56,790 bases of DNA from Alphaproteobacteria bacterium (GTDB lineage: Bacteria; Pseudomonadota; Alphaproteobacteria; Geminicoccales; Geminicoccaceae). The stretch covers positions 1 to 56,790 of the forward strand of contig JALUAG010000043.1 in assembly GCA_027045875.1 (NCBI GenBank), given 5' to 3'. The first letter of the stretch is position 1. Each line of letters opens with the position of its first letter. The notes under the pieces are model-generated. The model saw nothing but the letters and a program-made list of their open reading frames with translations, did not search any database and was not told the DNA's origin. Positions 25,899 to 28,619 of this stretch are shown in pieces. The position numbers were made by a program, and so were the translations under genes.

Positions 25899-26546
25899 TC
25901 AGCGGCGCCGGCTGCGGCCGCCGCCCGGGGCCGTGCGCAGGAATGCGAACAGCCGGCCGGTGAGCCGACCGTAGCGCAGCACCTCGGCGATGCGGCGATC
26001 GAGGAAGGCCCAAGTCTCGCGGCAGCCCTCGGAATCGTCCTCGAGCCAGTAGAGCAGAGTGGCGACGAGGATGCCGGCCAGGAGCGACCGGCGGGTATAG
26101 TAGTCGAGATCGCGACGCTCGCCGGCCGGAAAGCCGGCCGCCTCCCAGATGCGGTCGACGGTGCGCCACAGGGCCGTGATTCCGCCCGGCAGATTGTGGG
26201 GCAGACCACGCGCCAGCACCGCCCGGCGCACCGCCTCGCGGTGCGGGGTGAGGGCTTCGAGGCGCGCCCGTACGAGACGGGCGATGCGGCGGCCGACCGG
26301 CAGCTTGTCGAGATCCTCGCCCGCCACCCGGGCGAGCATGCGCCGGTCCGCCCAGTCGTCGAGCCAGGCGAGGAGGCTGTCGCCGCCGCGCGGGAAGAGG
26401 CGTCTCGCGGTGGCCGGCTCGACACCGGCGTCGAGGGCGGCGTTGCGCAGCGTCTGCGTCCCCCAACCGTCGAAGGCGGCGTGCATCAGCGCCGCTTCGA
26501 GGATGCGGTCCTTGAGTGCCGTTCGCTCTTCGGCCGGGTCGCTCAC
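25899..26546 (-). CDS. COQ9-family ubiquinone biosynthesis protein
   Basis: This 215-residue helical protein starts like a TetR regulator (LKDRILEAALMHAAFDGWGT, then TLRNAALDAGV) and continues with the COQ9-specific region including MLARVAGEDLDKLPVGRRI, GLPHNLPGGITALWRTVDRI and DYYTRRSLLAGILVATLLYW. COQ9 proteins bind lipids and help ubiquinone synthesis. It has no downstream partner gene. It is divergent from rpsU, an arrangement common in Alphaproteobacteria. Confidence 0.88.
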   Translation of the reverse strand: MSDPAEERTALKDRILEAALMHAAFDGWGTQTLRNAALDAGVEPATARRLFPRGGDSLLAWLDDWADRRMLARVAGEDLDKLPVGRRIARLVRARLEALTPHREAVRRAVLARGLPHNLPGGITALWRTVDRIWEAAGFPAGERRDLDYYTRRSLLAGILVATLLYWLEDDSEGCRETWAFLDRRIAEVLRYGRLTGRLFAFLRTAPGGGRSRRR

Positions 26547-26698
26547 GCCGGTTCCCCCAGTGGCTCGCAGATGGGACGGATCCGCGTCCGCCGCCGCTCA
26601 CCTGCGAGATAGCGCAGATCCCGCGCCGGCAGCAAAAGGAGATTGGGCCGGGGCCGTCTTCCGGAGACCGCGACCGCAGCCCCGAACCCGCGGCCCTC

Positions 26699-26727
26699 TT
26701 GCGTCCGGGCGCGGAACGGATTATGTG
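26699..26727 (+). promoter_or_regulatory. Candidate rpsU promoter
   Basis: TTGCGT (26699-26704) and TATGTG (26722-26727) are separated by 17 nt, in the 250-nt gap between the divergent coq9-like gene and rpsU. The -10 box is weak (three of six bases). A start of transcription near 26734 would leave a leader of about 65 nt. Confidence 0.35.
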
Positions 26728-26733
26728 ACCAGC

Positions 26734-26749
26734 GCCCGCTCGCGCGGGC
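26734..26749 (+). promoter_or_regulatory. Hairpin in rpsU leader
   Basis: GCCCGC (26734-26739), loop TCGC and GCGGGC (26744-26749) form a 6-bp all-GC stem at the expected 5' end of the rpsU transcript. It has no T tract. It might protect the 5' end or take part in autoregulation, but it may be chance in GC-rich DNA. Confidence 0.25.
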
Positions 26750-26797
26750 AAGGGTGGGTGCGTCCCGAGTCCAACCGCCAGCGAAGGAGTTCGAGCC

Positions 26798-27004
26798 ATC
26801 ATCGAGGTCACCGTCCGCGACAACAACATCGACCAGGCGCTGCGCGCGCTCAAGAAGAAGATGCAGCGCGAAGGTCTCTACCGCGAAATGCGCATGCGGC
26901 GCTTCTACGAGAAACCCTCCGAACGGCGGGCCCGCGAGCGGGCCGAGGCCATCCGCCGCTACCGCAAGCTGATGAAGAAGCGGATGGAACGCGACGAGCT
27001 CTGA
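26798..27004 (+). CDS. rpsU: Ribosomal protein bS21, non-canonical ATC start
   Basis: The 68-residue product reads [20 protein letters not shown] followed by [19 protein letters not shown] and [16 protein letters not shown]. This is an unmistakable bS21 protein of the small ribosomal subunit. A good ribosome-binding site, AAGGAG (26784-26789), lies 8 nt before ATC 26798. From the in-frame stop at 26726 to this point there is no ATG, GTG, TTG or CTG; the only near-cognate starts are the two adjacent ATC codons. Initiation at ATC 26798 gives the expected family length. Either this is a true AUC start, possibly used to limit synthesis, or an original ATG appears as ATC through a one-base error. 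Confidence 0.9.
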
Positions 27005-27034
27005 ACCCCGCAGGAAGACGCGATCGGAATCGGG

Positions 27035-27054
27035 AGCCCGCCGTCAGGCGGGCT
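27035..27054 (+). terminator. Rho-independent terminator after rpsU
   Basis: AGCCCGCC, loop GTCA and GGCGGGCT form a perfect 8-bp stem ending at 27054, followed by TCGTCGTTTCG. It begins 31 nt after the rpsU stop. The T tract is weak, as often in GC-rich genomes. Confidence 0.65.
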
Positions 27055-27161
27055 TCGTCGTTTCGCCCCCGAGGTGCCGGTGCCGCGAGGAGCCGCGCCG
27101 CCGGCCGGCCGGGATGGCGGGCATCGAGGGGGCACCTTCCCCCGCGATCCTCCGCCGCGTT

Positions 27162-28619
27162 TCAGGGATCGAGCGCCCGCACCACCTCCTCGGTGATCTT
27201 CTTGGCGTCCCCGAACAGCATCATCGTGTTGTCCCGGTAGAAGAGCGGGTTGTCGATGCCGGCGTAGCCCGGTGCCAGGGACCGCTTGACGAAGAACACC
27301 GCCTTGGCCTTCTCGACGTCGAGGATCGGCATGCCGTAGATGGGCGAATCCGCATCCTCCTTGGCCGAGGGATTGGTGATGTCGTTGGCGCCGATCACGT
27401 AGGCGGCATCGGCGGTCTGGAACTCGTTGTTGATCTCCTCGAGCTCGAACACGACGTCGTAGGGGATGTTGGCCTCGGCCAGCAGCACGTTCATGTGCCC
27501 GGGCATGCGTCCGGCCACGGGATGGATGGCGAACTTGACCTCCACCCCCTTCTTGGTGAGGGCGTCGTAGAGCTCCCGCACCGCGTGCTGGGCCTGGGCC
27601 ACCGCCATGCCGTAGCCGGGAACGATGATCACCTTCTGGGCGTTCTCCATGATGAAGGCGGCATCCTCCGGCGAGCCCGCCTTGGCCACCTTCTCGCCCT
27701 CCTCGGCGGCGGCCGCGCCGGTCTCGCCGAAGCCGCCCAGGATCACCGAGACGAAGGAGCGGTTCATCGCCCTGCACATGATGTAGGAGAGGATGGCGCC
27801 CGAGGAGCCCACCAGCGCGCCGGTGATGATCAGCATCGGGTTGTTGAGGGTGAAGCCGATGCCGGCCGCCGCCCAGCCCGAGTAGCTGTTGAGCATCGAG
27901 ATCACCACCGGCATGTCGGCGCCGCCGATGGGGATGATCAGCAGCACGCCGAGGGCGAAGGCGAGGAGCGTCATCAGCAGGAAGACGAAGCCGCTCTCGG
28001 TGCCCATGAAGACGAGCAGCAGCAGGACGATGCCGGCGCCGATGGCGAGGTTGATGACGTGGCGCGCGGGCAGGAGGATGGGCTTGCTGCTCATGAACAG
28101 GCGGAAGACCGCGAGGACCGGCTCCGGGATCTTCTCCTCGATGTGCTTCGGGAAGCGCGCCTGCAGCTTGCCCCAGGCGATGACCGAGCCGGTGAAGGTG
28201 ACGGCGCCGATGATGGTGCCCAGCCCCATCTCGAGCAGCGAGGCGGTCTTGATGCTGCCGTTCTTGACGATGTGATAGGCCTCGGGATCGAGGAGGGCGG
28301 CGCTGGCCACGAATACCGCCGCGAGACCGACCAGCGAGTGGAAGGCGGCGACGAGCTGGGGCATCGCCGTCATCTGGATGCGCTGGGCGATCATGAAGCC
28401 GACCCCGCCGCCGGCGGCGATGCCGACCAGGATCAGCAGGTAGGTGCCGACCGAGGGCGCCGGCAGCACGAGCAGCGTCACGACGACGGCCAGTGCCATG
28501 CCGGCCATGCCGTAGACGTTGCCCTGGCGGGCGGTGCTCGGGTGCGACAGGCCGCGGAGTGCGAGAATGAAGCAGACGGCGGCGACCAGATAGCCGAGGG
28601 CGGCGAGATTGGCAGTCAT
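27162..28619 (-). CDS. pntB: NAD(P) transhydrogenase subunit beta
   Basis: This 485-residue inner-membrane subunit carries the proton channel and the NADP(H)-binding domain. The N-terminal two thirds are hydrophobic helices, including GGGVGFMIAQRIQMTAMPQL and GGADMPVVISMLNSYSGWAA. The C-terminal domain has VIIVPGYGMAVAQAQHAVRE, HPVAGRMPGHMNVLLAEAN and GANDITNPSA. Proton motive force drives hydride transfer from NADH to NADP+. It follows pntA2 by 13 nt in a three-gene transhydrogenase operon. Confidence 0.96.
   Translation of the reverse strand: MTANLAALGYLVAAVCFILALRGLSHPSTARQGNVYGMAGMALAVVVTLLVLPAPSVGTYLLILVGIAAGGGVGFMIAQRIQMTAMPQLVAAFHSLVGLAAVFVASAALLDPEAYHIVKNGSIKTASLLEMGLGTIIGAVTFTGSVIAWGKLQARFPKHIEEKIPEPVLAVFRLFMSSKPILLPARHVINLAIGAGIVLLLLVFMGTESGFVFLLMTLLAFALGVLLIIPIGGADMPVVISMLNSYSGWAAAGIGFTLNNPMLIITGALVGSSGAILSYIMCRAMNRSFVSVILGGFGETGAAAAEEGEKVAKAGSPEDAAFIMENAQKVIIVPGYGMAVAQAQHAVRELYDALTKKGVEVKFAIHPVAGRMPGHMNVLLAEANIPYDVVFELEEINNEFQTADAAYVIGANDITNPSAKEDADSPIYGMPILDVEKAKAVFFVKRSLAPGYAGIDNPLFYRDNTMMLFGDAKKITEEVVRALDP

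Follow-up and report, generated by a model that had tools for sequence, protein, structure and literature searches.

A near-cognate AUC codon as the probable start of rpsU in Geminicoccaceae, and probable near-cognate rpsU starts in other Alphaproteobacteria

Natural genes known to start with codons other than AUG, GUG and UUG are few. Several of the closest described systems concern start codons that are rejected by initiation factor IF3. Repression of such starts by IF3 is established as a means of control for infC and sigR (PMC5472188). The infC gene, encoding IF3 itself, starts with AUU, AUC or AUA in E. coli, Streptomyces and S. aureus (PMC5472188, PMC13009471). The sigR gene of Streptomyces starts with GTC in 32 of 34 cases and with GTT in the other two; mutation, Western blot and IF3 mutants served to prove the GUC start. 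For both sigR and infC, such starts are said to be prone to misplacement by gene finders (PMC5472188). In Staphylococcus aureus, conserved near-cognate starts with a supporting Shine-Dalgarno sequence (SD) were found by Ribo-Ret and reporters for ccpN (AUA) and cvfC1 (AUU), and the extended SD pairing that aids weak starts is presumed to be impeded by ribosomal protein bS21 (PMC13009471). Finally, 30S subunits of Flavobacterium johnsoniae carrying a C-terminally cut bS21 form complexes with rpsU mRNA independently of IF3 (PMC9976891). Here, we describe a probable near-cognate start of rpsU, the gene for bS21, in Geminicoccaceae. A full-text literature search of one library returned no report of a non-canonical rpsU start among the matches listed.

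The rpsU start in the window and its close relatives

The gene lies in the window, i.e. the whole stretch of 56,790 nt that was analyzed (Table 1). An earlier note, made from these letters alone, had described a conserved bS21 product preceded by a strong, correctly spaced AAGGAG and by ATC ATC in place of a usual start, in a frame free of ATG, GTG, TTG and CTG. The sequence bears this out. From the conserved core the frame stays open over 25 codons in the 5′ direction, with a stop 26 codons before the core, and back to that stop it contains none of these four codons. Between AAGGAG and ATC ATC GAG (GAG at 26804-26806) stands the spacer TTCGAGCC of 8 nt, and the SD duplex energy is −8.3 kcal/mol with the anti-SD ACCUCCUUA (all SD energies were computed with a 9-nt anti-SD in a fixed 16-nt window). 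The identity of the product was likewise confirmed: it matches Pfam Ribosomal_S21 with 73.1 bits (E = 1.5 × 10−20) as well as 34 distinct sequences of solved structures, which comprise bacterial bS21 and mitochondrial bS21m. The gene, whose stop codon is TGA (27002-27004), is the sole S21 match in this genome (99.93% complete). It is flanked by a COQ9 gene on the opposite strand, with polA beyond COQ9; downstream, also on the opposite strand, are ORFs which we take from their translations to be transhydrogenase-like.

Table 1. Features of the rpsU locus in the window
Feature	Position	Strand	Basis or remark
Possible −10 element, TATGTG	26722..26727	+	by eye; kept in both congeners
Inverted repeat GCCCGC-TCGC-GCGGGC in the rpsU leader	26734..26749	+	stem letters vary among relatives
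Shine-Dalgarno AAGGAG of rpsU, 8 nt 5′ of ATC	26784..26789	+	duplex energy
rpsU coding region, bS21, 68 aa + stop	26798..27004	+	Pfam and structure-sequence matches
ATC, inferred rpsU start codon (codon −2 relative to the conserved core E-V-x-V-R-D-N-N)	26798..26800	+	comparison
Second codon ATC (Ile)	26801..26803	+	GTC/GTT/GTA in 31 of the 47 non-canonical loci; hence not the conserved start

Both congeners compared carry ATC ATC at the same site, as do thus all three genomes of the genus. In the wider family sample (31 genomes, rpsU found in 28), codon −2 was near-cognate in 22 of the 28 genes (ATC 14, CTG 6, ATT 2), including a one-contig assembly with CTG. The remaining six displayed ATG one codon earlier (3) or, one codon later, GTG (2) or TTG (1). 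The earlier note had proposed to compare this codon in close relatives, with ATG in all of them speaking against an ATC start; ATG stands at codon −2 in none of the 28.

Upstream of the possible −10 element, CTTGC (26698-26702) is also kept in both congeners, again judged by eye; a consensus scan gave no sigma-70 match.

Start codons of rpsU across Alphaproteobacteria

Across the class, 251 alphaproteobacterial rpsU loci were read, of which 24 identical copies were dropped before counting, leaving 227 distinct loci. These are the loci that were fetched rather than a random sample. Nine of them were chosen for having a near-cognate relative, and all nine were near-cognate themselves, so that counts of families are safer than counts of loci. 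A canonical codon was found at codon −1 in most cases (GTG 103, TTG 32, ATG 27), at codon −2 in others (ATG 3, GTG 5, TTG 6), and as ATG at codon −3 in four. No ATG, GTG or TTG occurred at −1 to −3 in the remaining 47 loci, which we refer to as non-canonical. Codon −2 is ATC (29), CTG (8), ATA (6) or ATT (3) in 46 of them; the exception, L424, has ACG at −2 and ATT at −3. The same four codons occurred at −3, −4, −5, −6 and −7 in only 2, 5, 0, 0 and 2 of the 47 loci, respectively. Moreover, the open frame lacks any ATG, GTG or TTG in 12 of the 47 loci from eight families, the window included (11 loci in seven families when L424 is left aside). Examples are L190 (stop, six codons, ATC), L226 (ATT) and L228 (ATA, with a poor SD of −3.9 kcal/mol).

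Near-cognate codons at −2 were detected in 14 of the 90 alphaproteobacterial families sampled; the family table comprises 154 loci with family codes and leaves aside a set of named loci, so that two of the 47 non-canonical loci (L091, L107) are without a family. Six multi-sampled families were near-cognate in all members read, i.e. three members each in f15, f94 and f105 and two each in f22, f26 and f33, and an exchange between ATC and ATA was seen within f94. A fifteenth family, f84, is represented solely by the exceptional L424, next to a member with TTG. On a tree of infC and rpsO from 58 genomes, at least nine changes of the rpsU start state were counted, two of them forced by well-supported branches; the tree was built by a quick method and has many weak branches, so it points to a likely repeated change across lineages without fixing the number. 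Outside the class, all 29 rpsU loci read in other classes of the phylum started with ATG (the best-scoring loci, not an even sample).

We also noted that at codon −1, 135 of the 227 alphaproteobacterial rpsU genes carry GTG or TTG, mostly with the SD 10-11 nt away.

The boundary of coding constraint was located by substitution counts in 12 groups of close relatives (pairwise, hence not independent). Over the ten codons 5′ of codon −2, changes were spread evenly across the three codon positions (154/141/127), with 16 synonymous and 208 non-synonymous codons. Codons −2 and −1 displayed 0/0/11 changes, all at position 3 and all synonymous, and the first 20 codons of the core displayed 15/0/203. 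Since changes are even upstream and biased to position 3 from codon −2 on, this pattern argues that coding constraint begins at the ATC. The distance from the SD to codon −2 is 7-9 nt in 40 of the 47 non-canonical loci.

These data bear on two readings that would do away with an AUC start in the window. The earlier note had named a single G-to-C sequence error from ATG as its main alternative. Beyond general caution nothing favors such an error, and we give it practically no credence: it is ruled out by the separately assembled congeners, both with ATC ATC, and by the near-cognate codons in 22 of 28 Geminicoccaceae genes, the one-contig assembly among these. Alternatively, translation might start elsewhere, at the second ATC or at some upstream codon. 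The window does carry two adjacent ATC codons, several relatives have an in-frame GTG within or adjoining the SD or at a more 5′ position, and for 4 of 41 loci an upstream codon has the better SD (TTG −7 in L013, GTG −8 in L028, TTG −18 in L041 and GTG −5 in L163). The second codon, however, is GTC, GTT or GTA in 31 of the 47 non-canonical loci, which makes it an unlikely start, and an upstream start is unlikely given the lack of coding constraint 5′ of codon −2 and the 12 loci, the window's among them, whose frame holds no canonical codon. Together with the SD spacing to codon −2, this leaves a start elsewhere improbable. The ATC at 26798, which the earlier note had proposed as the start, is thus backed by the congeners, by the near-cognate codons of the family, by the coding boundary and by the SD spacing.

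Ribosome binding site, leader and control genes

Pairing of the SD was somewhat stronger in non-canonical than in canonical rpsU loci (medians −8.4 and −7.2 kcal/mol; Mann-Whitney p = 2 × 10−4, with loci that are non-independent), and the medians of the codon groups among the non-canonical loci ranged from −7.4 to −9.5 kcal/mol. For infC in Geminicoccaceae, the value was −9.8 kcal/mol. Predicted accessibility of the mRNA at the start did not differ (median 0.46 for 41 non-canonical versus 0.45 for 159 canonical loci), and the predicted fold of 26720-26860 is ordinary (z = 0.42). An Rfam scan of 26400-27200, including ribosomal-protein leaders, yielded nothing reaching the gathering score; sub-threshold matches to HDV_ribozyme (23.1 bits versus 50) and CRISPR-DR28 (21.6 versus 35) were judged to be due to chance.

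A short G+C-rich hairpin, in the window the inverted repeat at 26734-26749, was observed in many Geminicoccaceae rpsU leaders, often about 40-60 nt 5′ of the start, close to where the mRNA probably has its 5′ end, with differing stem letters. Leaders beat their shuffles (p ≤ 0.05) in 10 of 28 Geminicoccaceae, compared with 2 of 28 for either of the two control stretches. The consensus fold of 13 leaders chosen from the 28 comprised five pairs at −1.0 kcal/mol, and given this weak consensus we do not claim the hairpin as a conserved element.

Three control genes were read in Geminicoccaceae. The start was ATG in 30 of 30 rpsO loci and in all 27 genomes with infC found, that of the window included, and for rpsT it was GTG in 22, ATG in 6 and TTG in 2 of 30 loci. 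The near-cognate start in this family is therefore found on rpsU and is absent from rpsO, rpsT and infC. A match to rpsO was absent from the window's own genome and present in both congeners, probably owing to an assembly gap.

Judging from its ATG, infC in Geminicoccaceae seems to be without the classic IF3 start-codon feedback, which raises the question why it has an ordinary start there. Outside the family, infC and rpsO were compared in 30 other alphaproteobacterial genomes, picked so that 17 had a near-cognate and 13 a canonical rpsU start. Read by eye, infC started with ATA in 23, ATC in 5, ATT in 1 and ATG in 1, about eight of the 30 having an in-frame ATG a few codons downstream. An rpsO gene was found in 29 of these genomes: in 27 the aligned codon is ATG, in L336 the ATG lies one codon further on, and in L348 no call could be made. 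A mutual exclusion of weak rpsU and weak infC starts was considered and dropped, as 16 of the 17 genomes with near-cognate rpsU outside Geminicoccaceae also have a near-cognate infC start by eye.

Use of the AUC start and comparison with known systems

The AUC at 26798 is, on the comparative evidence, very probably the true start codon of rpsU. As the best overall explanation we favor, with moderate confidence, that it is a true start and most likely a weak one discriminated by IF3. The initiator fMet-tRNA would read AUC with a third-base mismatch, aided by a good SD at 8 nt, and in several alphaproteobacterial lineages the same start position would be AUC, AUU, AUA or CUG and seldom AUG. IF3-bound 30S subunits would reject AUC and keep bS21 output low, and output would rise once free 30S subunits exceed IF3; with AUC on rpsU, bS21 synthesis would therefore be weak and would respond to the IF3-to-30S ratio. 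That the start serves as such an IF3-sensitive control is suggested by analogy, and we lean slightly towards it.

A codon of the type ATH or CTG is kept at this position and ATG is seldom seen there (three loci, none from Geminicoccaceae). Methionine should be inserted by the initiator irrespective of the codon, and ATG is one mutation away, so this conservation suggests that selection acts on the strength of initiation and not on isoleucine. From it we infer a benefit of inefficient initiation: the weak start seems to be maintained for a purpose, probably that of setting the amount of bS21. Against this explanation stand the six of 28 Geminicoccaceae genes that start with ATG, GTG or TTG, so that the weak codon is not indispensable; likewise, with GTG or TTG at −1 in so many genes of the class, a milder weak start may perhaps be sufficient.

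Two other uses of a real AUC start have to be weighed. It might just hold bS21 synthesis at a low, constant rate, or be merely tolerated, with no feedback through IF3 or bS21. Such a role would fit the prevalence of GTG and TTG in rpsU of the class, which implies weak starts of several strengths, and the mostly GTG starts of rpsT in Geminicoccaceae (22 of 30); plain limitation is known from the AUU of pcnB in E. coli, going by the title of a reference in PMC13009471. Since IF3 discriminates generally against codons other than ATG, GTG and TTG (PMC5472188), some response to IF3 would be hard to avoid, however, and the six families that are near-cognate in all members read also argue against a constant rate, which we regard as possible and on the unlikely side. 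Still more doubtful is a control of bS21 by itself, in which the stringency of the start codon would let AUC sense 30S subunits without bS21: these might accept AUC because they hold the SD more firmly or evade inspection by IF3, while complete subunits would reject it. Such a loop, proposed by analogy, would be a second, independently evolved route to feedback of the Flavobacterium type, in which many alphaproteobacterial families would use AUC, AUU, AUA and CUG as interchangeable settings.

With AUC, AUU, AUA or CUG at the start position in 14 of 90 sampled alphaproteobacterial families, rpsU offers a directly testable case of start-codon choice controlling a protein of the 30S platform. Annotations of these genomes may miss rpsU or begin it wrongly.

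Among the known systems, that of PMC9976891 concerns the same gene, and control lies at translation initiation there as is proposed here. The means differ: in this Bacteroidota-type autoregulation the SD of rpsU is extreme (below −13 kcal/mol when paired with an extended anti-SD), the anti-SD is sequestered by bS21, bS18 and bS6, and 30S subunits lacking bS21 favor rpsU mRNA, whereas an ordinary SD is combined here with an odd start. We saw no Flavobacterium-like SD signal, with −8.3 kcal/mol at the window's rpsU and a median of −8.4 kcal/mol in non-canonical loci, values obtained with a shorter anti-SD than that of PMC9976891 and thus on a scale that is not identical. The ccpN and cvfC1 genes share with rpsU a near-cognate start with SD outside infC, but do not encode ribosomal proteins (PMC13009471). 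Like sigR (PMC5472188), rpsU has a conserved non-canonical start outside infC; codon and gene differ, and the case for rpsU is made by comparison alone. With infC, as described in PMC5472188 and PMC13009471, it has in common a near-cognate codon of the IF3-rejected set, an SD, conservation, and a product that is a component of initiation. It differs in that the gene is rpsU, that infC of Geminicoccaceae itself starts with ATG, and that the effect of IF3 is assigned by analogy. The earlier note had suggested a control similar to that of infC, an analogy that has to be modified: the gene under IF3 control in E. coli is that of IF3 itself; with the weak codon on rpsU, any loop in Geminicoccaceae would be one of IF3 on bS21 or of bS21 on itself. 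By what the comparison gives, i.e. a near-cognate start with a well-spaced SD, a non-canonical codon conserved in 22 of 28 genes and coding that begins there, rpsU is a new case among a known kind of gene, that whose start codon is discriminated by IF3.
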